A stretch of DNA of 22,128 nucleotides, from positions 1-22,128 of the IMG/VR virus record IMGVR_UViG_3300024261_000170, one strand, 5' to 3'. The stretch's first letter is position 1. Each line of letters begins with the position of its first letter. Source of the DNA: a virus. The notes beneath the pieces were generated by a model. That model ran no database searches and was not told where the DNA came from. It saw nothing but the letters and a program-made list of their open reading frames with translations. A program made the position numbers and the translations under genes. Positions 6,394 to 21,987 of this stretch are shown here, piece by piece.

Positions 6394-7126
6394 TTATAGG
6401 AATGAAAGATTTAAAAGGGGTAACAGAGTACAAATAAGGTACAACCCCAGTCAAGCAAGAGATGATGGGCATTGGAACTCATCATTAATAAGTGGTAATA
6501 ATATAGACACAGCACGTTATATGACTTCAATAACCAATCCAGTAGAATCAAGGGGTATTGGTATTGATGTATTAACTTGTTCTGCATTTGGTGGTGAGAT
6601 ATCAGCATTAAGATCTGACTCTGATTTCGGTAATGGATACGAGACTGATGGTGGTACTTATTCCAGTGGTTTTGTTGGTGTAGATATTCCTAAGGATTGT
6701 TTCAATGGGAACTACAACAACTACATTAAGGATTACAATGATAAGGTGTATTTATTTGAGGGAGGTTCTAGCCCATCCATATCAGACGCTTATATATCAG
6801 AGTATTCATCATCATCTCAGTCTTCTAAATATGGTAAGTACGGTATTAACTACATCGTTAATCCTGTAGATACAATTAAAGTTGTTATCAGAGAGTCTAA
6901 CTTCGATGTGATTGCACAGTTACTTATGTCAGATGCTGTGGCTGTTGTATCTTGCGATATAGATTACACTGCAACAAAGAGTATACCTGATGGTGCTAAT
7001 GAGTTAGTAGCTTTCGGTGGTGGTAGTTATAATCCTATGGTAAGACAAGGTCATTTAATCTCCAATACAATTGAGAAGAAACGAGGAACAAGTACATACG
7101 AACTAACTATAAAACTATTAGGATAA
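6386..7126 (+). CDS. Tail protein, first of two tandem paralogues
   Basis: 246 residues, with no recognised family. It starts with 'YRNERFKRGNRVQIRYNPSQ' and ends with a strand segment closing in 'YELTIKLLG'. The next protein has the same layout: 'RRNRRFDVGQKVELLYNP' at its start and 'NTISIDLVLLG' at its end, plus a shared 'DAYIS' strand near the middle. The two are therefore probably diverged copies. The body is Gly-, Ser- and Tyr-rich and beta-like, with no signal peptide or membrane segment. It lies between the tail-tip gene (8-base overlap) and its paralogue (TAATG overlap), so a baseplate or tail-tip accessory role is the natural inference, for example forming a ring or peripheral part of the tip. 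Other structural roles are not excluded. Confidence 0.6.
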   Translation: MYSYRNERFKRGNRVQIRYNPSQARDDGHWNSSLISGNNIDTARYMTSITNPVESRGIGIDVLTCSAFGGEISALRSDSDFGNGYETDGGTYSSGFVGVDIPKDCFNGNYNNYIKDYNDKVYLFEGGSSPSISDAYISEYSSSSQSSKYGKYGINYIVNPVDTIKVVIRESNFDVIAQLLMSDAVAVVSCDIDYTATKSIPDGANELVAFGGGSYNPMVRQGHLISNTIEKKRGTSTYELTIKLLG

Positions 7127-7959
7127 TGGAAGTAAGAAGAAATAGAAGATTTGACGTGGGTCAAAAGGTTGAGTTATTATATAACCCAATACAGAAACTA
7201 ACAAACGGAGACTTAGGTGTATCAACATCTAATTACTCAGATGAATCGTTCCTTAGTTATGGTCAGTATGCAGAAGACTATAATAATGTTAACATATCAG
7301 TTAATGATGTTATAGCAACTCCTTATTTTGGTGGTAGAGTATCAAACCTGTATTACAATAACGTTACAATAGGATTAACTTATGATGCTTTTGGTGAACA
7401 CTCAGCAAACTACTTAGAGGGATACTCCCAGATAGATGCTTATATATTTGAACAGAAGACCAGTGGTTATTGGTACTGCTTAAATAATAGTGGTCATATA
7501 GAAGAGAATCTTGGGACTGCTGCTGGAGATAATAACAGGATATTAGATGCTTACATATCTAACGTAAAACTAAAAGCTAATAATAAAACATTTGGTTATG
7601 GGGAACAGGTATTCCAAAGTAATTGGCAAGATGTAGTTACTGTACAAGTTCCAGCTAATACTCCTGAATGGAAATTACAACAATTAGTTAATTCTACTGC
7701 TACTGCAATAAAAGGTAATAGTGATTTATATAATGTTATTCCTGATGGTAGTGAGTATGACGAAGAGTATGGAGATTCATATGGTGATACCGATGGTGGT
7801 GTTAGCGAATGGACAGATGTAGCTAACTATAATTATTATAAGCAATTCTCTGGTGGAAGTTGTAGCCCAGTAGTTAGAATGACAAATATAGATAAACCAA
7901 GTATAAACTACAATAGACGTAAGAATACAATATCAATAGACTTAGTGCTTTTAGGTTAA
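7126..7959 (+). CDS. Tail protein, second of two tandem paralogues
   Basis: 277 residues. It is related to the preceding protein by its start (RNxRFxxGxxVxxxYNP), a central 'LDAYIS' strand and the same end (hydrophobic strand closing in LLG). It differs by an insertion near residues 205-225 that is very rich in Asp, Glu, Gly and Tyr (DEEYGDSYGDTDGG), possibly a flexible or ion-binding loop. No enzyme motif is seen. It is the last gene of the tail operon; its stop codon (7957-7959) forms the first three bases of the conserved regulatory element that precedes the head genes. A tail-tip accessory role is inferred from position and paralogy only. Confidence 0.6.
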   Translation: MEVRRNRRFDVGQKVELLYNPIQKLTNGDLGVSTSNYSDESFLSYGQYAEDYNNVNISVNDVIATPYFGGRVSNLYYNNVTIGLTYDAFGEHSANYLEGYSQIDAYIFEQKTSGYWYCLNNSGHIEENLGTAAGDNNRILDAYISNVKLKANNKTFGYGEQVFQSNWQDVVTVQVPANTPEWKLQQLVNSTATAIKGNSDLYNVIPDGSEYDEEYGDSYGDTDGGVSEWTDVANYNYYKQFSGGSCSPVVRMTNIDKPSINYNRRKNTISIDLVLLG

Positions 7960-8031
7960 TCGGAGTTTTATAAACCTATATATCAATTCTTTATGGGAAT
8001 TTTTTTGGCTGACGGTCTATATAATTATAAC
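7957..8031 (+). promoter_or_regulatory. Conserved bipartite element, copy 1 (before protease and capsid genes)
   Basis: This 75-base element recurs at 19215-19289. The first 15 bases (TAATCGGAGTTTTAT) are identical in both copies. After a diverged 28-base stretch come TTTTTTTGGCT, RAM, GGTCTA, six variable bases and TAKAAC, all at exactly the same distances; about 50 of 75 positions match by eye. From TTTG to TAKAAC is 18 bases, close to the -33/-7 spacing of Bacteroidota promoters, although TAKAAC is not the vegetative TAnnTTTG box. A late promoter with an upstream activator site is the likeliest reading. The likely start codon follows 28 bases downstream, at 8059. Confidence 0.6.
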
Positions 8032-8058: not shown

Positions 8059-9216
8059 ATGAATTTACCTATTTACGATATTACATTAGATGATTTTAGT
8101 CAGGGTATTATGGCAACTAGTCTTGTAGACTATCCTGCGATTGAAAGTGATTTCATTCACTTCAACAAAGATGAAGCTACATTTAAATTCTCTAACGAAG
8201 AGAAAAGAGAAGTACTAGGTGCAGTATTAGTTCCTGACAAATTAATCTACAGAAGAGATGGTTATGGTAATGAATACTATGTTAAATTCACAGCAGAAGT
8301 AATTCAACAATTGAATGCTAAGATGCACGAAGATGGGTTTAATAAAGTGTTTACTATTGGACACGAACTTGAAGCTGGTAACACCGTTAAGTTCTTAGAA
8401 TCTTGGATTAAAGAAACAGAAGAAGACAAGTCAAACGCTTTCGGAATAAACGAACCAATAGGCTCATTATTTATGAAAGTTAAAATAGAAAGTGAAATGC
8501 TGTGGGAGAACATCAAGGAAAACAAATTAAATGGTTTTTCAATTGAATTAGATGCTTCAATCATAGAAACAAAATTAAACAAAAATATGGACTTATCACG
8601 AATCTTAAAAAATGAGATAGTAGTTGGTGAAGAAACATTATTGTTCAATACTCTAGCAGAGGGTGAAGTAGTTGCATCTGACAATAAAGAATGGTCAGGT
8701 ACTTTTACACACGAAGGTAGTGAAGTTGTTGTTGAAGACGGAAACGTTATCAGCGTAACTGAAGTACCACCTGTTGAGGCTGAAGCTGTAATCGAAGAAG
8801 TAGTAGCTGTTGAAGTTGCTGCTGAAGAGGTTGTAGAAGAAGTGGTAGTAGAAGAAGTAGTAGCTGAAGAATTAGCTGAGGAAGAAGTAACTGAAGAGGT
8901 TGCTGAACCCATAGTTGAAGAAGTAGCTGCTCCAATCGAAGTACCAGTTGACACTACTGTTTTTGATTCCATCGAATCTCTAAACGCAAAGGTTGATGCA
9001 CTTACATCAATGATTACAAATCATTTTGCAAGTATGCAACCAGCAGAGACTACTACTGAAGTAGAAGAGTTATCTGCAAATATTGAGGAAATTAAACTTG
9101 AATTAAAACAACAAACTGCTGAAGCCGAAATAATGAGCGAAGCCGTTACCGATGAAGTTGTAGCTAGTGAGTTTTCAGTTGAGAACTACAGAGCTGTATC
9201 TGATTGGGGAAAATAA
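8059..9216 (+). CDS. XkdF-like capsid maturation protease with probable fused scaffold
   Basis: 385 residues from the ATG at 8059 (MNLPIYDITLDDF). An in-frame ATG at 7993 would add 22 residues, but that stretch is encoded by the conserved regulatory element, so 8059 is preferred. Residues ~10-180 match the XkdF-type phage serine protease pattern: 'GAVLVPDKLIYRRDG', then FTIGHE with the candidate catalytic His, then GSLFMKVKIES and KLNGFSIEL with the candidate catalytic Ser. Residues ~235-300 are a low-complexity Glu/Val/Ala tract, and residues ~305-365 form a coiled coil. Such a tail immediately before the capsid gene fits an internal scaffolding domain that is removed during head maturation. 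The protein would cut scaffold and capsid precursors inside the prohead. The protease assignment is good; the scaffold fusion is inference. Confidence 0.82.
   Translation: MNLPIYDITLDDFSQGIMATSLVDYPAIESDFIHFNKDEATFKFSNEEKREVLGAVLVPDKLIYRRDGYGNEYYVKFTAEVIQQLNAKMHEDGFNKVFTIGHELEAGNTVKFLESWIKETEEDKSNAFGINEPIGSLFMKVKIESEMLWENIKENKLNGFSIELDASIIETKLNKNMDLSRILKNEIVVGEETLLFNTLAEGEVVASDNKEWSGTFTHEGSEVVVEDGNVISVTEVPPVEAEAVIEEVVAVEVAAEEVVEEVVVEEVVAEELAEEEVTEEVAEPIVEEVAAPIEVPVDTTVFDSIESLNAKVDALTSMITNHFASMQPAETTTEVEELSANIEEIKLELKQQTAEAEIMSEAVTDEVVASEFSVENYRAVSDWGK
8770..8945 (+). repeat. Low-complexity GAA/GTA/GCT triplet tract
   Basis: Imperfect triplet repeats, mostly GAAGAAGTAGTAGCT-like units, encode alternating Glu, Val and Ala in the C-terminal half of the protease gene. 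The tract keeps the reading frame. It could change length in whole triplets by slippage without breaking the protein. It also produces a long, meaningless open frame on the opposite strand. Confidence 0.7.
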
Positions 9217-9238: not shown

Positions 9239-10141
9239 ATGGCAACTGGAATAACAATTGCATCTTTAGACTGGGGTAACAGAACTCCTGACAGATTTAT
9301 TGACGCTGCAGTAAAAAACGCTGACGTATTAAATCTATTTACTTTGATTGACAACGTAAAAAGTAAAGTACAAGTACCTATTTTTACAGGTGACTTGCAA
9401 TGGGGAAACGACCTATGTGTGTTTGACCCACAAAGTACAACTGGTATAGACGAAAAAGAAATGTCTGTTACTAATTGGAAATGGTCTTTTCAAAACTGTA
9501 AGACTGCACTTCAAACTTCTTACCGTTCAAAAATGCTTAAACAAGGAGCTAACAACGCTGAAACTATGGACGCTGAGTTTGGTGAGTGGACTTATGACTA
9601 CTTCGCAAAATTGAGTTCAGAGAAAGTTGTAACTTTAGCTGCTACTGAAATCCGTGCTGAATTAGTAGGTGATGCTGCCGTTATCGATTACGATATGGGC
9701 GTTACTGCTATTGACGACACAAACATCCTTGACAAAATGAAAGGTGCTTACCAACTTCTTTCTAACGACCTACTTAACCAATTGTTTGGTGGTTCTGACA
9801 GAGAGTTCAAACCTGCTTTCCTTATGAATGCAAATATGGTTCAATCTTACCAACTAGCAATAGCTGCAACTTATACTACTGTATATGACGGTTATGCTGA
9901 GGGTAAAATTATGCCTTTCTTAGGAATGGACATTATACTTTTCAATACTATGGCTGACGGTGAAATCATCTTGACTAACCCAAGTAACTTAGTAATGGTT
10001 GTTGATGACTATGCTGATACTAACGCTATTAATGCTGAGTACGAAGCAAAAGTTTCTTCTGACTATATCTGGGGTCAATTCACAATAGGATTCTCTTACC
10101 TTAAAGGTGAAGATATCGTATTTGCTGCTGACTTATCATAG
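9239..10141 (+). CDS. Major capsid protein (HK97-type fold likely)
   Basis: 300 residues, starting MATGITIASLDWGNRTPD behind an A/T-rich leader (TTTAAAATT before ATG). It follows the maturation protease by 22 bases, the classic protease-capsid order. The protein is mixed alpha/beta, acidic and free of signal or membrane segments. 'GGSDREFKPAFLMNANMV' in the middle and a C-terminal series of hydrophobic strands (IILTNPSNLVMVVDD; WGQFTIGFSYL) fit capsid proteins of Bacteroidota phages. No long N-terminal delta domain is present, which fits the idea that scaffolding is supplied by the protease fusion. Codon use leans to C-ending codons (AAC, GAC, TAC, CTT) more than in the tail genes, as expected for a very highly expressed gene. 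An intrinsic terminator follows directly. Confidence 0.85.
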   Translation: MATGITIASLDWGNRTPDRFIDAAVKNADVLNLFTLIDNVKSKVQVPIFTGDLQWGNDLCVFDPQSTTGIDEKEMSVTNWKWSFQNCKTALQTSYRSKMLKQGANNAETMDAEFGEWTYDYFAKLSSEKVVTLAATEIRAELVGDAAVIDYDMGVTAIDDTNILDKMKGAYQLLSNDLLNQLFGGSDREFKPAFLMNANMVQSYQLAIAATYTTVYDGYAEGKIMPFLGMDIILFNTMADGEIILTNPSNLVMVVDDYADTNAINAEYEAKVSSDYIWGQFTIGFSYLKGEDIVFAADLS

Positions 10142-10163: not shown

Positions 10164-10190
10164 GGAGGGGATTAAGTTCCTCTCCTTTTT
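10164..10190 (+). terminator. Intrinsic terminator after capsid gene
   Basis: GGAGGGGA pairs with TTCCTCTCC over 8 base pairs (one G-U) around a six-base loop and is followed by five T. The tail tube start codon lies only 25 bases further on with no obvious promoter between, so the hairpin probably terminates only part of the transcripts and lowers tube expression relative to capsid. Confidence 0.8.
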
Positions 10191-10215: not shown

Positions 10216-10752
10216 ATGGGATGTACACCATCATTAACTTTAGGTGGAATCAGTTACTCTTGTGACGATATCGCTGTAGGAGGACTTAAAAGAGTTCTTT
10301 ATACACTCTCTGCTGACGCAACTCTTACTGAGGCTGCTGGAGAAATTACTGCTGCGACTATCACAAGTGGTGATACTGTTGAACTAGAGTTTAATAACAA
10401 AGACGGTTTCTCTGCTTTTAGTGAAGAGAAAACTGTTGAGGCTAACGGAGTTGTAAACGTAGTACCTACTGTAGTAGTTGAATTTCCAAAAATGACTGCT
10501 GCTAAACGTGCTGAGTTAGACCAAATCTCTGTTGCTGGAATAGAATTAATTGTATGGGTTGAAACTGCTGCTGGTACTTACCACGCAATAGGTGTAGACT
10601 TTGGAGCATATTGCTCATTGGTTTCAGGTCAAAGTGGAACTGGTCGTTCTGAAAAGAATATGTACCAAGTTACTTTTACTGGTGAAGAAGACCACTTATC
10701 ATACTCAGTTGACTCATCCGCTTGGACAAGCGTTGTTGGTTCAATTGCATAA
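10216..10752 (+). CDS. Tail tube protein (major tail protein)
   Basis: 178 residues. It begins MGCTPSLTLGGISYSCDDIA followed by GGLKRVLY, a start typical of Bacteroidota phage tail tube proteins, which often carry early Cys residues and a 'GG-K' turn. The rest is beta-rich: 'SGDTVELEFNNKDGFSAFSE', a 'VVVEFPKMTAAKRAELDQIS' segment, then 'IELIVWVETAAGTYHAIGVD', and a C-terminal 'MYQVTFTGEEDHLSYSVD' pair of strands. This is the strand-strand-helix-strand layout of tube proteins that polymerise around the tape measure. It lies between two terminators, directly after the capsid gene and not beside the tape measure gene, which is unusual. Codon use is C-enriched like that of the capsid gene. Alternative: another small virion decoration protein. 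Confidence 0.72.
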   Translation: MGCTPSLTLGGISYSCDDIAVGGLKRVLYTLSADATLTEAAGEITAATITSGDTVELEFNNKDGFSAFSEEKTVEANGVVNVVPTVVVEFPKMTAAKRAELDQISVAGIELIVWVETAAGTYHAIGVDFGAYCSLVSGQSGTGRSEKNMYQVTFTGEEDHLSYSVDSSAWTSVVGSIA

Positions 10753-10780
10753 GAAACTTTCTTTCTTTTTGTTTTACACG

Positions 10781-10817
10781 ATGGCGATGACATTAGGTTG
10801 TTGTCGCCATTATTTTT
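10781..10817 (+). terminator. Intrinsic terminator after tail tube gene
   Basis: ATGGCGATGACA pairs with TGTTGTCGCCAT over 12 base pairs with two G-U pairs and a six-base loop (TTAGGT), followed by TATTTTT. It is a strong hairpin that closes the capsid-tube block before the membrane protein genes. Confidence 0.87.
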
Positions 10818-11328: not shown

Positions 11329-11950
11329 ACTTAAACAAATTATAACGAATGGTGTATGCTTAATATTAGTATTACTAATGGTAGGGATATCTATCTATAG
11401 TTATAACTTGGGTAAGAAGAGCGTTGAATGTTTAAAGGCTATAACCGATACTACTACAATCTATAAGGATATAACCTATAGAGATACTATATATACACCA
11501 AAACAATATGTATCAGAAAACGATACAATATTTGACACACTACATCATTACAGAATCGATACGATAGTATTACCAACTGTAATTGATACACTTGAGGTTA
11601 TCAAAGGATACTACGAATCTGTTATAGCAATAGATACAATACTAAATGATACCAATGGTTTTATAGTTATTGCTGATTCAATCAGTAAGAACAGAATACA
11701 GGGTAGAACAATTAACTCTATGAAATTATATCCAAGAGTAACTAAGGTTACCAAATATAGAGATAGAGAATTTAAAAAATCTTATTTCGGTGGAGTAGGG
11801 ATTGTTGGAAACGAAAGGAGCTTAGGCTTAAAAGTTGAACTCGGAGTTCTTTACAACCCAAACACGCTTTTTACTGCCTCATATGACATCATAAGAGGTG
11901 ACTTCTCCACTGGAATATATTGGAAACTTAATTTTAAACTTTTTAAATAA
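11315..11950 (+). CDS. Membrane-anchored envelope protein, possible one-piece spanin
   Basis: 211 residues from the ATG at 11315 (MTIAKLKQIITNG), which overlaps the putative holin by 14 bases; the upstream in-frame ATG at 11279 would overlap it by 50 and is less likely. Residues ~12-32 form one membrane segment (VCLILVLLMVGISIYSY). The following ~70 residues are rich in spaced Asp-Thr pairs (RDTIY, NDTIF, IDTIV, IDTLEV), a pattern common in extracytoplasmic phage and Bacteroidota membrane proteins of the DUF6808 kind. The last ~50 residues look like amphipathic outer-membrane strands (GGVGI; LGLKVELGVLY; LFTASYDII; FSTGIYWKLNFKLF). An inner-membrane anchor plus outer-membrane-like end would suit a protein bridging the envelope. 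The membrane topology is seen; the spanin role is inference. Confidence 0.6.
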   Translation: MTIAKLKQIITNGVCLILVLLMVGISIYSYNLGKKSVECLKAITDTTTIYKDITYRDTIYTPKQYVSENDTIFDTLHHYRIDTIVLPTVIDTLEVIKGYYESVIAIDTILNDTNGFIVIADSISKNRIQGRTINSMKLYPRVTKVTKYRDREFKKSYFGGVGIVGNERSLGLKVELGVLYNPNTLFTASYDIIRGDFSTGIYWKLNFKLFK

Positions 11951-11963
11951 AAAAAGACTAATT

Positions 11964-14306
11964 ATGGCTTTTGAAACATTAAAAACATTAATTAACGATA
12001 ACATTAAATCAGGATTACCTAACGGTATTAGACCTGAGGAAGAGCATAACCCTGTTCTTCAATCTATCGTTAGTACATTTGGTCAAGACTATATTTATAT
12101 GGGTCTTGCTACGACTAGCACATCACCATCAACGGATGATAATGCAAGGATGTACATAACTAACGGAGGTGGTACTTATACTAACTTTATGGATGATGAA
12201 TCCAACCCTATCGTAGTTGAAGAGGGTAGCATATGTTTTCTTAAAGGAGTGAGTGGCACATATTCTAAGGACGTTATAATTGACGGTGGATCTATAACAG
12301 ATAGCACAAAACTTAGGATTAGTGATAGTGGTACAGCTTTAGATTTAGAGGCATACCATAATTCAGCTTGGGTATCCATAGGTAAGTTTTCTTACGATGG
12401 AACTGAGGCTACCTATGAGGATTTAACTGCTAACAGTATTGTTTCCAGTTCTCTAGATGCGTCATCTATTGCTTCTGATAGTATAACTTCAGATACAATG
12501 ACAATAAACGGTGCTACTCCAGTAAGCCTTAAAGGATTAGCTGGTGGTATGTCTATTACTAAACAACGACAAGAGCAAGTTGGTGGTGATAAGATTGTAA
12601 ATACTGCTGCTAACAGTTTAGCTGAATTAAGTGACGCTGGTATATTAGGTAAAGCTGCATTGGTTTACGCTCCTTTTACAAGTAGAGCTGACTATACTGA
12701 TTCACTTGTACCATCACACGACTATGGTAGATTTGACTTTGCAAGAAGTTCAAGTAAAAACGTTGTTAATAAAGACGGTTTACTAAACTATCTTCCTGAG
12801 GATGTTCCTGCTTATGAGTATGACAATGGTGTAGAACCATATCTACTTACAGAACCAGCATCTACTAACTTAATAACATATCCTATTTCTTTTGGTAACT
12901 CATATTGGACAAAGAGTGGTGCGAGTATTGAAGGTGATTCAAGTACGGCTGGTAGTGAGTTGGTAACTGATGGTGTATTTGCAGACCCATTAAATACTAA
13001 TTGGACAACTAACGGAGATTGGACTATTGCAGGTGGTAGTGGTGCTGTGTTTACTTATACTACTGGTCTTAAATATATAACTCAACCTTTTATAATTGCA
13101 GATAATGCTTTTATTCAATTGACATTTACAATATCAGGAGCAAGTGGTGGTGGTGCAAGTATAAAGTTTACAAATGAGGCTACTAATCTATTATTCGGGG
13201 GGGCGTACACCCCATTATATCCAGATGGTACTTATACATTATATTATAATACGTTAGAAGCGGCAACAGGAATAAGAATTTATGCTAATACAAACTCATT
13301 TACAATAGACAACGTATCAGTCAAAGAATTACAAGGATTTGAATCACCTAAAGTTGATGGAAGTGGAGATTTAGAAACAGAAGCTTACAAACTTGTTGAG
13401 GATGGGGCTACGTCATCACATAGGATAGCAAGTTCATCATTAGCCTTTAACGCATCTGATTACTCGCAGTTTATCTATGCAAAAGCAGGAGAAAGAGACG
13501 TTATACAAATCTTTTTGGGTGGGCAACATTCGGGTAGTGCTTATGCTAATTTTGATTTAACAAATGGTACAATACCAAACTCAACGGGATTAACACCTAC
13601 TATAATACCTATGGCAGATGGTTGGTATAAGTGTAGTGTTGTGTTTACTGCATCTGCATCAGGTGGTGAGGTCATTTATTATTCATTAGCAGATAGCGAT
13701 GCAATGGCAAGGGCAGGTAGTTACGCTGGTGATGGCACAAGTGGTATTTATGTTGCCTACGCACAACTTGAAGAACAAGCGTCAGCGACATCGTTAATGC
13801 TACCAGCAGTAGAGGGTTCAACATCTTCAAGAGTAGCTGATGTAGTTAATAACGGTGGTAGTCAAGCTTTATTTGGTGGTGTAAATGCATCGGGAGTATT
13901 GTATACAGAGATTGCTGCTTTGAGTGATGATTTGACAGATAGATATATTACTATTGGAGATGGTACAACTGATAACTATGTTGATATATACTATTCCTCT
14001 GCATCTAATCTCATAAGTACTAGGGTATATAGCGGAGGTGTTATACAATTTATTACATCTACTTCTGTTAATGATATAAGTGATTTTCATAAAATTGCTG
14101 TAAGGTGGGCGCAAGATGATTTCAGTCTTTGGGTTGATAGTATAGAAATAGCAACCGATACAAGTGGAATTACACCATTAGGATTGAATACATTGAAACT
14201 CTCATATCCCGTTGGTAGCAGCAGTGCTTTCTACGGCAAAACAAAAGGTGTTGCAGTATTCAATTACCTATCAGATACAGAGATGACTAAATTAACAACA
14301 GTATAA
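11964..14306 (+). CDS. Tail fibre / receptor-binding protein 1
   Basis: 780 residues from MAFETLKTLIND; the longer frame from 11898 overlaps the upstream gene and is not shared by the paralogues, so 11964 is chosen. Residues 1-~150 are an N-terminal domain shared with the proteins at 14319 and 18010 (FETLK, GLPNGI, HNPVLQSIV, FGQDYIYMG, DDNARMYI), probably the virion attachment part. Residues ~295-620 form a carbohydrate-binding-like jelly roll (TNLITYPISFGNSYWTKSGA ... YKLVEDG ... AYAQLEE) interrupted at ~331-470 by a second such module (GSELVTDGVF ... IDNVSVKEL). Residues ~640-780 resemble a LamG/concanavalin-like lectin domain (FHKIAVRWAQDDFSLWVD). The role is host surface glycan recognition. 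A G7 tract at 13197 may be a slippage site. Confidence 0.8.
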   Translation: MAFETLKTLINDNIKSGLPNGIRPEEEHNPVLQSIVSTFGQDYIYMGLATTSTSPSTDDNARMYITNGGGTYTNFMDDESNPIVVEEGSICFLKGVSGTYSKDVIIDGGSITDSTKLRISDSGTALDLEAYHNSAWVSIGKFSYDGTEATYEDLTANSIVSSSLDASSIASDSITSDTMTINGATPVSLKGLAGGMSITKQRQEQVGGDKIVNTAANSLAELSDAGILGKAALVYAPFTSRADYTDSLVPSHDYGRFDFARSSSKNVVNKDGLLNYLPEDVPAYEYDNGVEPYLLTEPASTNLITYPISFGNSYWTKSGASIEGDSSTAGSELVTDGVFADPLNTNWTTNGDWTIAGGSGAVFTYTTGLKYITQPFIIADNAFIQLTFTISGASGGGASIKFTNEATNLLFGGAYTPLYPDGTYTLYYNTLEAATGIRIYANTNSFTIDNVSVKELQGFESPKVDGSGDLETEAYKLVEDGATSSHRIASSSLAFNASDYSQFIYAKAGERDVIQIFLGGQHSGSAYANFDLTNGTIPNSTGLTPTIIPMADGWYKCSVVFTASASGGEVIYYSLADSDAMARAGSYAGDGTSGIYVAYAQLEEQASATSLMLPAVEGSTSSRVADVVNNGGSQALFGGVNASGVLYTEIAALSDDLTDRYITIGDGTTDNYVDIYYSSASNLISTRVYSGGVIQFITSTSVNDISDFHKIAVRWAQDDFSLWVDSIEIATDTSGITPLGLNTLKLSYPVGSSSAFYGKTKGVAVFNYLSDTEMTKLTTV
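13197..13213 (+). other. G7 homopolymer with adjacent C4 arm in fibre gene
   Basis: Seven G at 13197-13203 encode Gly-Gly and the first base of Ala at codons 412-414 of fibre 1, and CCCC follows at 13210-13213, so a short GGGG/CCCC hairpin is possible. A gain or loss of one G leads to a stop codon within about 20 codons and would remove the lectin-like C-terminus. Confidence 0.5.
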
Positions 14307-14318
14307 AAAACGAAACAT

Positions 14319-17105
14319 ATGTCTTTTGAAACATTAAAAGCTACAATAAATAGCAATATAGTATCGGGATTACCCGATGGTATTAGAGCGGATTATGAGA
14401 ATAATCCAACGTTACAAGACATTGTATCTGCATTCGGACAAGATCACATATATATGGGGAGTGCCACAGTCGGTACTTCCCCTATGACAGATGATAATGC
14501 AAGAATGTATATATCAAGTGGTAGTGGAGAATTTACTGCCTTTCGTGATAGTGGAAACAATGCTATAAATATTAGCGAGGGAGAGATTGCAATATTAAAA
14601 GGAATCAGCGGTGTATACGAGAAGAATGTTTTCTTCTCAGGTGATACAATAGATGATGCTGGTTCAGTTAGAATTAACGATACTGGAAGTCTAATTCAAT
14701 TACAAGCTAAATACAATGGAAGTTGGGTTACAGCTTCTGAGTTTGGTTATATTGGAGGTGATATTACATTACAAGATGTTGTGTCAAGTAGTGTTAACGC
14801 AAACAGTGTAGTTGTAAACGGTTCTGTTGAGTCAACCTCAAATACAGACGTTAAGGACTATCTATGTATTGATGGTGAGGTTTTAGTATCCCAAAATGAA
14901 TACTTATACGCAGATGAATTTATAGAAGACAGATTAGAGTCTACTACTGGTGAGTATATTCCTAACACAGCGAGTAATTCACTTGCAGAGATAGGTATGG
15001 ATACTATAAATGATAAGTGCGTATTATATAATGAAGCTGTTACATCTGAAGTGGGTGTTATAGAATCTATTGTTCCTGACAGTACTGACGGTAACTTCGA
15101 CGTTACAAGAAGTTCTATTACTAATAGGGTTAATAGAGATGGTTTTATAGAGGAAGTACCAGCAAACACAGCGTCATATAATTATACAAGTGGAGATACA
15201 CGTCCTTATCTATTGACAGAGGCTGCTTCTACAAATCTAATAACATATCCAAAATCATTTGGTAATAGTTATTGGACTAAGAGTGGAGCTACTATTGAGG
15301 GTGATGCTAGTAGTGCGGGGAGTGAATTACATACATCCGCAAATGCAGCAAGTGACCCTAATGGGAATGAGGCTAATGCAACAACAGGCTGGGTAGTTGT
15401 AAATGGAATGGCATTGACAAGTGATGCTTCAGCCCCGCAAACAGGAGGTTATGCTTTGAAAGGAGTTAGTATTGGTATAGCATTCGGTCGAATGACATAT
15501 TCTTTTAGTGGATTTACAATAGGTTCGATGTATAAAGTATCTATATGGGCTAAGAGAGGAATCCAAGGGACAGACCAGAAAATAGCAGCTTGGGCTGGAT
15601 TTTCTTCAATACCTATTACTTCTATAAGTTCTACATCGTGGCAAGAATATGTCTTTTATGTCGTTGCAATAAGTACGACGCCAGAAATAAGAATTTACTC
15701 AAATTACACTACAACTGTTTCTGGAGATGAAGTTTATGCTGATAATATAAGCATCAAAGAAGTACAACCATTTGAAGCACCGAAAGAAATACCATCTACT
15801 AACGGAGTAGAGTTGGTAACTAATGGTGATTTTTCAAGTAGTACAGGATGGTCTTTGCGTAATAATTGGACTGTCTCAGGAGGTACACTAAACACAGTGT
15901 CTGAAAGTGATTATTCAGCCTACACAATAGGAGATATGTCAAATAAAATTGTAAAGGTTACTTATGACATAACATCACATACAACCGGTGGTGTTTCTGT
16001 TAGATTTTTTGGTTCTGAATCACAAATTGGCATTTACAGGGGTGCTGTTGGAACATACACAGAGTACATACAGGTTCAATCTTCACATAACGGGGACTTT
16101 GGATTTCAAGCGCTTTCATCCTTTACAGGTTCAGTAGACAACGTTTCTGTAAAAGAAGTAACATCTTACTCAGGCGGAGGCTTTGAGAGAGATGCTTATA
16201 AACTTGTTGAGGATACGAATAACTCTGCTCATTATATAAATAATGCAACTTCATCCGTAACCAGTGGGGCAACTGTGACTCATTCAACTTTTGTAAAGGC
16301 AGCCGAAAGGCGTTGGATTGCTTTATATGAAAGTTATAGCATTGGAAGTGGATATTATTTTGATTTAACTAACGGAGTATTGGGCGCAACGATTGGAATA
16401 ACACCTGATAGTTATTCAATAAGAGAAATAGCAAATGGGTGGTATAGAATAAGTATAACGACAACAGTGCCAAGCACAAGTGCACGAATTCGTATTGCAC
16501 TGGCTGATTCTGATGGGGGTACTACTTATACAGGCGATGGCACATCAGGCTTATACATTGCCTACGCACAACTTGAAGAAAGCGGTTATGCAAGTAGTCT
16601 AATGCTACCAACAACTGAGGGAAGCATAACAAGTAGAGTTGCCGATGCAGTTACTAATGCTGGTAATCAAAGTTTGTTTAGTAGTGTTAATAGTAGTGGG
16701 GTGTTGTTTGCGGAGATTGGGGCGCATTCGGATGATGGAACGAATAGATGGATAAGTATTAGTAAAGATGCTAATAATTACGTAGGGTTGGTATATACTG
16801 CAGCCACAAATCAGGTTGCTCTTTTTATAAATGTAGCTAGTAGCTTAGTAATAAAGACATATACCTTAACAGATGAAACAAATTTTAGTAAAATTGCAAT
16901 TAGATGGGCTACAAATGATTATTCATTGTGGGTTGATGGGGTTGAAGAAGCTACTGATGCTACACAAGGTGCATTTTCTACAAATGATTTAACAACATTA
17001 AATTTTGGAGATAGTGGTGGAGGTAGTAATTTCTACGCCAAAACAAAAGCAATTGCAGTATTTGATTATTTGAGTGATGAAGAAATGATAAGATTAACTA
17101 AATAA
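14319..17105 (+). CDS. Tail fibre / receptor-binding protein 2
   Basis: 928 residues, paralogous to fibre 1 along its whole length but with one additional module. Residues 1-~150 are the shared N-terminal domain (FETLKATINS, FGQDHIYMG, DDNARMYIS). An outer jelly-roll-like module starts at ~304 (TNLITYPKSFGNSYWTKSGA) and resumes at ~625 (DAYKLVEDTNNSAHYI), ending ~745 (AYAQLEE). Two modules are inserted in between: ~334-482, ending ADNISIKEV, and ~496-614, with VELVTNGDFSSSTGW at its start and VDNVSVKEV at its end. Residues ~793-928 are a LamG-like lectin domain closely related to that of fibre 1 (FSKIAIRWATNDYSLWVDG). It starts 12 bases after fibre 1. The glycan-binding role is inferred from the modules; no depolymerase motif is visible. 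Confidence 0.8.
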   Translation: MSFETLKATINSNIVSGLPDGIRADYENNPTLQDIVSAFGQDHIYMGSATVGTSPMTDDNARMYISSGSGEFTAFRDSGNNAINISEGEIAILKGISGVYEKNVFFSGDTIDDAGSVRINDTGSLIQLQAKYNGSWVTASEFGYIGGDITLQDVVSSSVNANSVVVNGSVESTSNTDVKDYLCIDGEVLVSQNEYLYADEFIEDRLESTTGEYIPNTASNSLAEIGMDTINDKCVLYNEAVTSEVGVIESIVPDSTDGNFDVTRSSITNRVNRDGFIEEVPANTASYNYTSGDTRPYLLTEAASTNLITYPKSFGNSYWTKSGATIEGDASSAGSELHTSANAASDPNGNEANATTGWVVVNGMALTSDASAPQTGGYALKGVSIGIAFGRMTYSFSGFTIGSMYKVSIWAKRGIQGTDQKIAAWAGFSSIPITSISSTSWQEYVFYVVAISTTPEIRIYSNYTTTVSGDEVYADNISIKEVQPFEAPKEIPSTNGVELVTNGDFSSSTGWSLRNNWTVSGGTLNTVSESDYSAYTIGDMSNKIVKVTYDITSHTTGGVSVRFFGSESQIGIYRGAVGTYTEYIQVQSSHNGDFGFQALSSFTGSVDNVSVKEVTSYSGGGFERDAYKLVEDTNNSAHYINNATSSVTSGATVTHSTFVKAAERRWIALYESYSIGSGYYFDLTNGVLGATIGITPDSYSIREIANGWYRISITTTVPSTSARIRIALADSDGGTTYTGDGTSGLYIAYAQLEESGYASSLMLPTTEGSITSRVADAVTNAGNQSLFSSVNSSGVLFAEIGAHSDDGTNRWISISKDANNYVGLVYTAATNQVALFINVASSLVIKTYTLTDETNFSKIAIRWATNDYSLWVDGVEEATDATQGAFSTNDLTTLNFGDSGGGSNFYAKTKAIAVFDYLSDEEMIRLTK

Positions 17106-18009: not shown

Positions 18010-19191
18010 ATGGCTTGGGAAACATTAAGAGCATTCATAGATGATAAGATTAGGGATAAGCTACCTATAAAAATAAGCGCTGATCTTGACCACAATCCTA
18101 CTCTTAACGAAATAGTAGATGTATTTGGTCAGGATTATATATATAGTGGAATAACTGGTAAAACACTACAACCATTTAACGATGATAATAGAAGAATGTA
18201 TTTTACTGATGGTTCTGTTGGTAACTACCTATTCTTTAAGGATGAGTTAGGAGCTGTTCTTTCAGTTGAAGAGGGTGAGTTTGTTATATTTACGGGAGTA
18301 AATAACGTATGGGTAAAGAGAACAATATATAATAATGGAACATTCCTTACTCTACCTGATACACCAGCATCATTCATTGGTGCTGCTGGTAATGAGGTTA
18401 GAGTGAACGACACTGGAACTGCGTTAGAATTTGTTAATACATCAAAGTTTACACCTACACTAGAGAGCGAAATTAATGCATCTACAGCCGTAACTCAGGT
18501 TATGGCAGTACAAGGTGATGGTATAGCTACTGACTCTGTAACAACTCCTTTATTGGTAGTTGGTGATAGTGAATATGAGGACTCTACTACTATAGATGAT
18601 GCAGGATTTCCTACATTTTGGGGAACGGCAGTGAACTATCAGTCAGTTAGTGTGTCTATGTTAGAAGCTAAGACTCTTGGTATTAAAGACCCTGACTTAG
18701 TACAGTACAAGGATAATGGTGCTGGTAGTACTGGTGTTTATGCTTATACATTCGATGCTTCATCAGAAGAAGAGTTGCTGTTCTCAATTGATGTACCGAG
18801 ACAATATCAAGAGAACACAGATGTAGGAGTAAACTTTAATTGGGTGTCCGCTGAAGACGGAGCTGCTGGTTTAAATGTTGCTTGGGGTATTGAGTATGCT
18901 TGGTCTAATAGAGGTGAATTATTTGGTAATACTTCGACAGCAATTGCTGATGATAGAGTACCATTAGACGCTCAGGTAACTCAGGATACTCTTTACAGGA
19001 CAGAGGTAAGTTCTATAGATGGTACTGGTAAAGATATAAACTCAACGCTTTTATGTAGAGTATACAGGAATGCGACTAATGTATTAGATACATTTACTTC
19101 TGATGCGTCCTTATTAAGCGTGGACTTTCATTTCGTTTGTAATAGCATAGGTAGTAGGCACGAGCAGAGCAAGGGTGTTGCAACACCTTAG
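18010..19191 (+). CDS. Fibre-like virion protein 3 (shared N-terminal domain, different C-terminus)
   Basis: 393 residues. Residues 1-~145 are homologous to the first domain of both fibre proteins (WETLRAFIDD, HNPTLNEIV, FGQDYIYSG, DDNRRMYFTDG), ending in the 'VRVNDTGTALEFVN' motif seen in fibre shafts. The C-terminal ~210 residues are unrelated to the lectin-type fibre ends. They form a beta-rich domain (GVYAYTFDASSEEELLFSID ... VNFNWVS ... LYRTEV) finishing with 'SVDFHFVCNSIGSRHEQSKG'. This closing pattern of a strand, 'IGSR' and a polar tail occurs in trimeric beta-sandwich domains of many marine phage virion proteins. It could be a tail appendage, whisker or head fibre using the same docking domain. 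A GC-containing palindrome overlaps the 3' end. Confidence 0.7.
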   Translation: MAWETLRAFIDDKIRDKLPIKISADLDHNPTLNEIVDVFGQDYIYSGITGKTLQPFNDDNRRMYFTDGSVGNYLFFKDELGAVLSVEEGEFVIFTGVNNVWVKRTIYNNGTFLTLPDTPASFIGAAGNEVRVNDTGTALEFVNTSKFTPTLESEINASTAVTQVMAVQGDGIATDSVTTPLLVVGDSEYEDSTTIDDAGFPTFWGTAVNYQSVSVSMLEAKTLGIKDPDLVQYKDNGAGSTGVYAYTFDASSEEELLFSIDVPRQYQENTDVGVNFNWVSAEDGAAGLNVAWGIEYAWSNRGELFGNTSTAIADDRVPLDAQVTQDTLYRTEVSSIDGTGKDINSTLLCRVYRNATNVLDTFTSDASLLSVDFHFVCNSIGSRHEQSKGVATP

Positions 19192-19214
19192 ACATAATAT
19201 ATAACGGAATAATC

Positions 19215-19289
19215 TAATCGGAGTTTTATTGTGTTGTACCATAGTCATTTACAAGATTTTTTTTGGCTAAAGGTCTAATATAGTAGAAC
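19215..19289 (+). promoter_or_regulatory. Conserved bipartite element, copy 2 (before portal gene)
   Basis: This is the second copy of the element at 7957-8031, with identical spacing between TAATCGGAGTTTTAT, T7GGCT, GGTCTA and TAKAAC (here TAGAAC at 19284-19289). The copy lies in a true intergenic gap of 145 bases, so coding constraint cannot explain the conservation. The portal start codon is 48 bases after TAGAAC, and a small hairpin (TAACC-ATTA-GGTTA, 19290-19303) lies directly behind the element. Confidence 0.6.
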
Positions 19290-19336
19290 TAACCATTAGG
19301 TTATTCTGTTATTAACGATAATAAAAAACATAAACT

Positions 19337-20641
19337 ATGAGTAGAGTACAAAAGTTAATTGATGGTGTCTTTGCAGCCATACCAACGACTGCAAGTAGTA
19401 ACACTATGGATAGGAATCCTATAGACCAAAGTCTTGAGGGCTTATTAAAGAATCCTCAATACGGCAAAGTTGGTGCATTCGAATATATTAAGTTCGGTCA
19501 GAACGATGATATTGATACAATCCTTGAGATACTAAAAGACAAGTCTGCTACACACAGTGGTATACTTAATCGTAAAGCTAAGATGGTTAGCGGTGATAGG
19601 CTTATTGCTGAAGGACTAACTGGTGGTAACGATAAGGCTTGGAATGCTTTTGAGAAAGCTGCTGGTGGTAAAGTAGGTTCAAGCCTTGAAGTACAATGGA
19701 AGCGTATGGGTAGCATATATGAGACTCAAGGTGCTGTTGGTATACTTGTGCGTAAGTCAGGTAATGACATAATAGCCATACAAGCTGTATCACCAAGACA
19801 AATGAGAATAGGTACGCTAAACAGTAAAAACGAAATTGACCATTACATATTAAGACCTACATTTGTTAGGGGTAGTGGTAGGATATTCGAGAAAACAGAG
19901 CGTAAAGTTCCAATCTTTGAGTTAGATAAAAATCAAAAGGAATCTTTGTTATATATAAAGAATCCAGCTACTGAGAATGACTTCTATGGTACACCTAACT
20001 ATATAGGTGCTTATAACTTCATTGAAGCAGATTATAAATTTGGTGTAACTATACACAATGCTGCTGAGAATGGTTTCCAACCTAAAGTAATGGCTACATT
20101 CGTAGGACGTAATATGTCAGACGAACAAAAGGAAGCACACGCTGATGCATTTAAGGATAACTTTAGTGGTTCTGATAGAGAGTTAGCTATTGTTAATTAT
20201 GTGCGTAGAGAAGAGGAGATGCCTAAGATTGAGAAACTTCAAATAGAGAATCTTGACAAGACTATAAGTACAATGGCTGACCTTAATGATGCTAAGATAC
20301 TAACAGCTCACTCCGTAACTAATCCAGCTTTGTTTGGTGTTATGGTAAGTGGTAAGCTAGGTAATAGTGGTACTGAGTTAGAGTCTGCTTATAATGTATT
20401 CAGAGCTACTGAGATGATTCCTGATAGAAACCTATTACTTGATGGTTTAACATTGGTATTCTCAGGTAGTAAGTATGATGACATAGAGTTCGTTGTTGAA
20501 GACCTTAATATAACTCCACAAGAGAATCGTGGTGGTGATGTAACACAGGATGAAGCTATCGAGGATACTCCTAAAGATGAGGCTCAGTCTAAATCAGATG
20601 ATAAAGCAGATAAGGACACTAAATCAACTAAAAAGAAATAA
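19337..20641 (+). CDS. Portal protein
   Basis: 434 residues. The portal is the dodecameric ring at one head vertex through which DNA enters and leaves and to which the tail attaches. Signs are: overall length and helical content; an early 'ILEILKDKSATHSGILNRKAK' segment as in portal wing regions; the middle segment IQAVSPRQMRIG followed by strand-turn-strand; a GTPNYIGAYNFIEADYKFGV helix; and the stem/crown pattern 'HSVTNPALFGVMVSGKLGN' followed by a GTELESAYNVF helix. The last ~35 residues are a disordered Lys/Asp tail. The start has an A-rich leader (AATAAAAAACATAAACT). It is followed by a probable connector gene after 2 bases. It is oddly far from protease and capsid, with its own copy of the conserved element. 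No terminase gene is present in the window. Confidence 0.85.
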   Translation: MSRVQKLIDGVFAAIPTTASSNTMDRNPIDQSLEGLLKNPQYGKVGAFEYIKFGQNDDIDTILEILKDKSATHSGILNRKAKMVSGDRLIAEGLTGGNDKAWNAFEKAAGGKVGSSLEVQWKRMGSIYETQGAVGILVRKSGNDIIAIQAVSPRQMRIGTLNSKNEIDHYILRPTFVRGSGRIFEKTERKVPIFELDKNQKESLLYIKNPATENDFYGTPNYIGAYNFIEADYKFGVTIHNAAENGFQPKVMATFVGRNMSDEQKEAHADAFKDNFSGSDRELAIVNYVRREEEMPKIEKLQIENLDKTISTMADLNDAKILTAHSVTNPALFGVMVSGKLGNSGTELESAYNVFRATEMIPDRNLLLDGLTLVFSGSKYDDIEFVVEDLNITPQENRGGDVTQDEAIEDTPKDEAQSKSDDKADKDTKSTKKK

Positions 20642-21615: not shown

Positions 21616-21987
21616 TTATATTTTTGTTGAATCGTTTATATTTAAGTAAGCAATCTTTTTACTTACCTTATTAGTGTTACTAAAGTCAGTTTGCTTAGGC
21701 ATTTTTGCATCAATCCAATCGTATTTCAGTTTTATAAGATTGAAAGAGAATACACCTAAAGGTGTTGAGTTGACATATCTAACATTACATCCTAGACTAG
21801 CGAGTTTACTGTATTTCATCTCTTCCAATATTAATGTAGGATAATGCGTCCTTCTGCATTTCAATTCAAATACTGTATTAAACTTAGGTGAATACGCATC
21901 AAATGACGAGTACTTATCTGTAGGCTTTACTAAATCAGGAATATAATTATCCTTTATATACGTGAACAATTCTCTTTCGTATCTCAT
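21616..21987 (-). CDS. PD-(D/E)XK-like nuclease candidate
   Basis: 123 residues, first gene of the minus-strand operon. The motif pattern fits a minimal restriction-endonuclease-like fold: an N-terminal helix (ERELFTYIKDNYI), an Asp in 'YSSFDAYSPKFNTVFELKCR' (Asp30), then Glu41-Leu-Lys43 as the ExK half, a helix (EEMKYSKLASLG) and a last strand pair (NVRYVNSTPLGVFSFNLIKL). The C-terminal ~35 residues are basic. Such small proteins act as Holliday junction resolvases, recombination nucleases or DNA repair nucleases in phages. It is followed after 4 bases by the lipoprotein gene. The fold assignment depends on short motifs, so it is tentative; an inactive relative is possible. Confidence 0.55.
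   Translation of the reverse strand: MRYERELFTYIKDNYIPDLVKPTDKYSSFDAYSPKFNTVFELKCRRTHYPTLILEEMKYSKLASLGCNVRYVNSTPLGVFSFNLIKLKYDWIDAKMPKQTDFSNTNKVSKKIAYLNINDSTKI

Follow-up and report, generated by a model that had tools for sequence, protein, structure and literature searches.

Among the closest described systems are the late promoters of bacteriophage T4, at which gp55 takes the place of the host sigma factor (PMC3014915). The same account further describes, for T4 genes e, soc and 49, a late promoter located inside a leader RNA hairpin (PMC3014915). For the Bacteroidota, the primary-sigma promoter is given as a -33 TTTG and a -7 TAnnTTTG (PMC6847099). Searches of the open literature, at the level of titles and the openings of abstracts, turned up no phage of the group considered here whose late promoters have been mapped.

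Here we describe a 75-base element of three boxes that occurs twice in a virus record of 22,128 bases (IMGVR_UViG_3300024261_000170), the whole of which is referred to as the window. A longer IMG/VR record of the same phage, of 41,933 bases, is ~99.96% identical across the window, and position x of the window is position x+2755 of that record. Its late genes run rightward, terL being followed by the tape measure, protease-like, capsid-like and portal genes, and from the right end its replication genes are read leftward. The terL profile match begins at position 348 of 807, so the N-terminal part of terL lies beyond the record end; the record starts inside terL, and the terL leader is outside it. 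The features of the two leaders and their surroundings are given below in window coordinates.

7957..8031, plus strand: element copy 1 (75 bases), lying in the protease-like leader (same sequence at 10712 of the 41,933-base record)
7957..7971, plus strand: box 1 of copy 1, TAATCGGAGTTTTAT
7975..7997, plus strand: possible small hairpin of copy 1, CCTATA / TATGGG with an 11-base loop (~3% in shuffles)
8000..8019, plus strand: box 2 of copy 1, TTTTTTTGGCT-GAC-GGTCTA
8026..8031, plus strand: box 3 of copy 1, TATAAC
8059..9216, plus strand: protease-like gene that follows copy 1 (matches to phrog_24921, of unknown function, at E 3.7e-32 and to phrog_34096, a head maturation protease, at E 7.4e-6)
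9239..10141, plus strand: capsid-like gene with 44 relatives (match to phrog_1623, a virion structural protein, at E 4e-6)
10164..10185, plus strand: terminator-like hairpin 3' of the capsid gene
10780..10811, plus strand: terminator-like hairpin 3' of gene 10216-10752
19201..19312, plus strand: sense RNA hairpin of 44 bp enclosing copy 2 (36 Watson-Crick pairs plus 8 G-U, -43.6 kcal/mol)
19215..19289, plus strand: element copy 2 (75 bases), lying in the portal leader (same sequence at 21970 of the 41,933-base record)
19215..19229, plus strand: box 1 of copy 2, within the 5' arm of the large hairpin
19233..19255, plus strand: possible small hairpin of copy 2, TTGTA / TACAA with an 11-base loop, an alternative to the large hairpin
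19258..19277, plus strand: box 2 of copy 2, TTTTTTTGGCT-AAA-GGTCTA
19284..19289, plus strand: box 3 of copy 2, TAGAAC, which base-pairs with box 1 in the large hairpin
19337..20641, plus strand: portal gene that follows copy 2 (match to phrog_11226, a portal protein, at E 2.4e-17)

An earlier note on this DNA had placed one copy ahead of each head-gene block, and this holds, with both copies in a single orientation. Copy 1 occupies the gap ahead of the protease-like gene, whose start at 8059 was picked by comparing relatives, and its first three bases (TAA, 7957-7959) double as the stop codon that ends ORF 7126-7959. Copy 2 lies within the gap 19192-19336 ahead of the portal gene. Between the two head-gene blocks stand the two terminator-like hairpins and three paralogous genes with a common start region (11898-14306, 14319-17105 and 18010-19191), for which ‘fibre-like’ is our own label, a family search for two of these three large genes having found none. 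In distant relatives ~430 bases separate gene 10216-10752 from the portal gene, a space that the fibre-like genes fill here, so the portal gene of this phage was set apart by the fibre-like module. A search of an annotated phage collection gave no match to the window DNA or to the portal, capsid or 131-aa protein (the last encoded outside the window, see below).

Scans for tRNA and tmRNA genes found nothing. Pieces resembling a tRNA T-arm (e.g. CGGTTCGAATCCGCC) are seen in the non-coding spaces before early genes in two loci of close relatives, L062 (~100-185 and 905-940) and L061 (~100-150), and a similar piece lies in a long non-coding stretch of this phage (record G001, ~39.75-40.63 kb); ARAGORN and Rfam reported no RNA genes at these pieces. 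Another non-coding stretch of record G001 (L054), at 38,797-39,572, holds many head-to-tail copies of a CTATAGTATAA-like unit and is possibly a replication origin.

The two copies are identical at 50 of 75 positions without a gap, with the conserved blocks in register. The identity alternates along the element, being 15/15 in box 1, then 11/28, 11/11 (T7GGCT), 1/3, 6/6 (GGTCTA), 1/6 and finally 5/6 (TAKAAC). The observations behind the earlier note are thereby confirmed: its coordinates are right, box 1 is identical over all 15 bases and the rest of the window is free of any site within three mismatches of it, and boxes 2 and 3 keep the same distances from box 1. Under an independent-base model of the window, 3.8e-4 pairs this good are expected, and the best pairs in six first-order Markov shuffles reach 43-45 of 75. 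Ten offsets in the window score at least 48 of 75, and since nine of them link the fibre-like paralogues or their immediate leaders, the element is the sole unrelated pair in the window. Box 1 by itself, allowing up to three mismatches, gives at least two matches in 36 of 100 shuffles, and in the 42-kb record its reversed pattern has three matches versus two for the real one. It is through its combined blocks that the 75-base pair is not a product of chance; box 1 alone is weak evidence. The spacers, taken as free in the earlier note, may be constrained, as a small stem of 5-6 bp with an 11-base loop can form at the same place in both copies (element positions 19-24/36-41). This stem was noticed after the fact, and about 3% of shuffled sequences (mononucleotide shuffling) do as well.

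There are possible explanations for a shared element in these two leaders. The one we prefer is that both copies are late promoters read by a gp55-like sigma factor of the phage, and we hold it with modest confidence, because the copies are few and the comparative material is scant. From the sequences and predicted folds we infer promoter activity, start sites, an activator and the pairing of sigma factor with element, in the following form. A region 2-only sigma factor, made from the leftward early genes, would join the host RNA polymerase late in infection. With the DNA opened by this complex at box 3 or close to it, transcripts would begin a few bases downstream, copy 1 serving the protease-capsid genes and copy 2 the portal gene. 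A sigma factor without region 4 is not known to read a -35 box, and boxes 1 and 2 are therefore assigned to another factor, which would set strength or timing; that box 1 is the binding site of an activator is a guess.

The earlier note had proposed a phage-specific late promoter, and its proposal is upheld in part. In its favor are the duplication of the element, in one orientation, in two late leaders, the terminator-like hairpins between the blocks, the candidate for a gp55-like sigma factor and the absence of a host-type site from both leaders, where a pattern scan for TTG..TAnnTTTG, run with no shuffle control, found none. Against it are the lack of further copies and the portal hairpin, which pure DNA binding does not explain. 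The observation that box 3 departs from the host consensus is borne out, as it reads TATAAC or TAGAAC and TAnnTTTG is missing from both leaders. A host-type promoter-like site, TTGAC..TATGTTTGC, is present at ~41,744 on the minus strand of record G001 (L054), at the start of the leftward early genes. This site at the far end of the early arm suggests a Bacteroidota host, which is the phylum we infer.

The phage also seems to encode its own protein for reading late-gene start signals, and this is why the copies have the look of such signals. The candidate is a 131-aa protein whose early gene lies on the minus strand at 28,462-28,857 of the 41,933-base record, outside the window. Three close relatives have it at 62-63% identity, and in two of these the protein sequence is the same. 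Family libraries assigned it to no recognised family, NCBIfam gave a single weak and unrelated hit (E 0.015, 2/4 members), and a sequence search of solved structures with its alignment returned six hits at E 0.17-0.59, none of them a sigma factor. An AlphaFold2 model from four sequences is of low confidence, with a mean pLDDT of 52.8 and 52-76 per ten-residue block over residues 1-90; an earlier model made without an alignment (mean pLDDT 41.0) was set aside. The top Foldseek hit in the PDB, a weak one, is T4 gp55 in a late promoter complex (E 0.5, probability 0.82, TM 0.53/0.51), with no PDB hit at E 0.001 or better. BFVD likewise gave none at that level; its hits (best E 6.7e-3) include phage proteins named as sigma factors, among them a sigma-like factor of a Klebsiella phage, and an unnamed protein of a Tenacibaculum phage.

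When the 155 chains ranked highest by Foldseek were re-examined with VIA-align, the titles of 21 of the first 27 rows named a sigma factor (Z 10.5 to 6.1), gp55 being row 3 (Z 9.1, 96 residues, 2.7 A). Rows 7, 17, 23 and 26 have titles without a sigma factor, row 16 is WhiG, itself a sigma factor, and the first row plainly of another kind has rank 28 (Z 5.9). VIA-align warns that helical folds can attain Z 13 through a common arrangement, so we rely on the consistency of the sigma hits and not on Z. By hhalign, residues 11-100 align with seven gp55 proteins, with P 9.4e-5 for one pair and a probability of 59%. Among ten distant relative records, a weak sigma-like match (E 0.0018) was found in one (G003) and none in the other nine; the G003 match has P 2.3e-5 against the 131-aa alignment and is not significant against gp55. 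A sigma-like fold is thus indicated by the predicted model, and on these comparisons the 131-aa protein is probably a sigma factor with region 2 only.

A lack of further copies ahead of other late genes is half of what the earlier note took as speaking against a late promoter, and no such copies were found, either in the 42-kb record, which is missing the terL leader, or in 118 relative loci. In the 41,933-base record no third copy was found, the next best score being 24 of 41. The relative loci (1.31 Mb, partly redundant) comprise 44 capsid relatives (39-59% identical), 71 further portal relatives drawn from the best 80 of 167 hits, and three close relatives obtained via the 131-aa gene, whose contigs end short of the portal gene. 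The element is absent from all 118, with a top score of 27 of 41, and none holds box 1 or box 2 at 14 or more of 15. Three exact-pattern scans of IMG/VR, one of them for box 2 plus box 3 alone, found nothing beyond this phage. Three pattern stretches in bacterial contigs (an intergenic gap of a Flavobacterium contig, a long ORF of a Bacteroidales contig and the end of a Clostridia contig) were judged to be chance from ORF lists only. The relatives of the late genes are distant: with the portal, gene 7126-7959 and the capsid as queries, no match listed was above 44% identity (portal) or 59% (capsid fragment), the same phage apart. Those leaders of the relatives that were read leave little or no room ahead of the protease and portal genes. 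Given this distance and a record that starts inside terL, a third copy may yet exist.

A different signal is repeated in the distant relatives. The motif TTGTANATTA occurs within ~80 bases ahead of 43 of 44 capsid genes, 29 of 33 portal genes and 13 of 27 protease genes, where gene starts were taken as tblastn alignment starts and the count has no shuffle control. Over 370 kb of the 44 loci (L007-L050) it is found 147 times on the plus strand and not once on the minus strand; locus L025, for example, has it at 8977, 9970 and 11899. In ten full-length relative records one strand carries 5-9 matches and the opposite strand 0-1, with 0-2 per strand for a reversed control. This phage has a single match, which lies in the early arm on the minus strand. 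In that phage group the motif may act as a late promoter or as a signal for translation, and its pattern makes it plausible, by analogy, that late genes of the wider group bear lineage-specific repeated signals.

The main rival to a late promoter is an RNA leader element, in which the boxes would work in the transcript for processing, antitermination or translation control; we regard this as possible, if somewhat unlikely. Its case is made by the portal copy, which with its flanks folds at -43.6 kcal/mol (z -7.6 to -8.5, with no shuffle as good), pairs box 1 to box 3 with the T tract in the loop, and has the lowest plus-strand energy of 2,681 overlapping 120-base windows of the 41,933-base record. 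As expected under selection on the sense RNA, the minus strand reaches only -17.5 kcal/mol (z -1.3) and all eight non-Watson-Crick pairs are G-U with none A-C, an outcome of 1 in 256 by equal odds that is less telling under strand-biased mutation, which could likewise yield G-U without A-C. The possible small stem, equally placed in both copies, points the same way. Yet copy 1 has no comparable fold, its z values of 0.31, 0.23 and 1.80 being no better than shuffles, and the inner uninterrupted stem of copy 2 scores 16 versus 14-16 in shuffles, with a minus-strand stem elsewhere at 18. Rfam also stands against this reading, with no match at the gathering score in the window and none up to E 1 in three loci spanning the 41,933-base record. 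Several specific roles for the leader RNA were considered and rejected. As an intrinsic terminator, copy 2 lacks a U run after the large hairpin and is not among the listed terminator-like hairpins; pairing of the two transcripts is predicted at -32.5 kcal/mol, where shuffles average -30.1 and reach -43.3 at best; and for a leader peptide, examined by eye, box 2 would read FLA-x-GL in copy 1, and the frame in copy 2 has no ATG and a stop upstream. The hairpin can also be joined to the late promoter. With a start a few bases past box 3 of copy 2, it would form only in read-through RNA, in which the portal start region has a predicted openness of 0.70-0.71 versus 0.43-0.57 for RNA from 19296 or 19290 (with no shuffle control). 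Hiding of the portal start in the manner of T4 was rejected, as this prediction runs the opposite way. A two-level switch, in which a probable Bacteroidota phage combines a three-box promoter, different from the known consensus sequences, with a gp55-like, region 2-only sigma factor and the portal-copy hairpin gives read-through and promoter-started transcripts different leaders, opening the portal start in the former, is an extension that we consider unlikely.

The block pattern would fit any sequence-specific binder, and the copies could instead be bound in replication, packaging or recombination, or by a homing endonuclease, and lie in the two largest head-gene leaders by chance. The direct repeats do flank an 11-kb block, and the 41,933-base record has an HNH endonuclease gene; still, the copies are co-oriented and directly ahead of late-gene start codons, the needed head genes between them would make exchange costly, and no integrase was noticed in the ORF lists, all of which leaves such a site very improbable. 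Only two copies and none in relatives is also what an old intergenic duplication would leave, its blocks spared by uneven decay and without present function. We give this the least credence of all, since the alternation of near-complete and low identity along the element is unlike uniform decay and 75 bases are kept without any gap.

If both copies are indeed late promoters read by the phage sigma factor, a candidate late sigma factor and its candidate target would be in hand in a lineage far from T4, and gp55-like late transcription would extend to a tailed phage of ~42 kb. The presence of TTGTANATTA in the distant relatives would then suggest that sister lineages swap the late-gene signal and keep the genes behind it.

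Compared with known systems, the element shares with T4 late promoters the repetition of short signals ahead of late structural genes and a phage-encoded early sigma factor with a region 2 fold, here a candidate whose fold is predicted and whose homology is tentative. It differs in box 3, which is TATAAC or TAGAAC (with two more bases, TATAACAT and TAGAACTA) and not the T4 -10 box TATAAATA, and in having two extra conserved upstream boxes. As at T4 genes e, soc and 49, the candidate promoter is enclosed in a hairpin whose formation would need read-through RNA; in this phage 24 bases separate the hairpin from the portal ATG, the start is predicted to be more open in read-through RNA, the reverse of T4 gene e, and copy 1 is without a hairpin. 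The Bacteroidota primary-sigma promoter is resembled in a TTTG that closes the T run 18 bases ahead of box 3, uninformative as part of the T7-T8 run, and it differs in the TAnnTTTG that is missing at box 3. Like the element, the TTGTANATTA motif is repeated, strand-specific and ahead of capsid, portal and protease genes, although it is a single 10-base motif near the start codon. Since a defining box of the T4-type and one of the host-type promoter were each looked for and not found, we assign the element to neither type; it probably belongs to phage late promoters as a kind.
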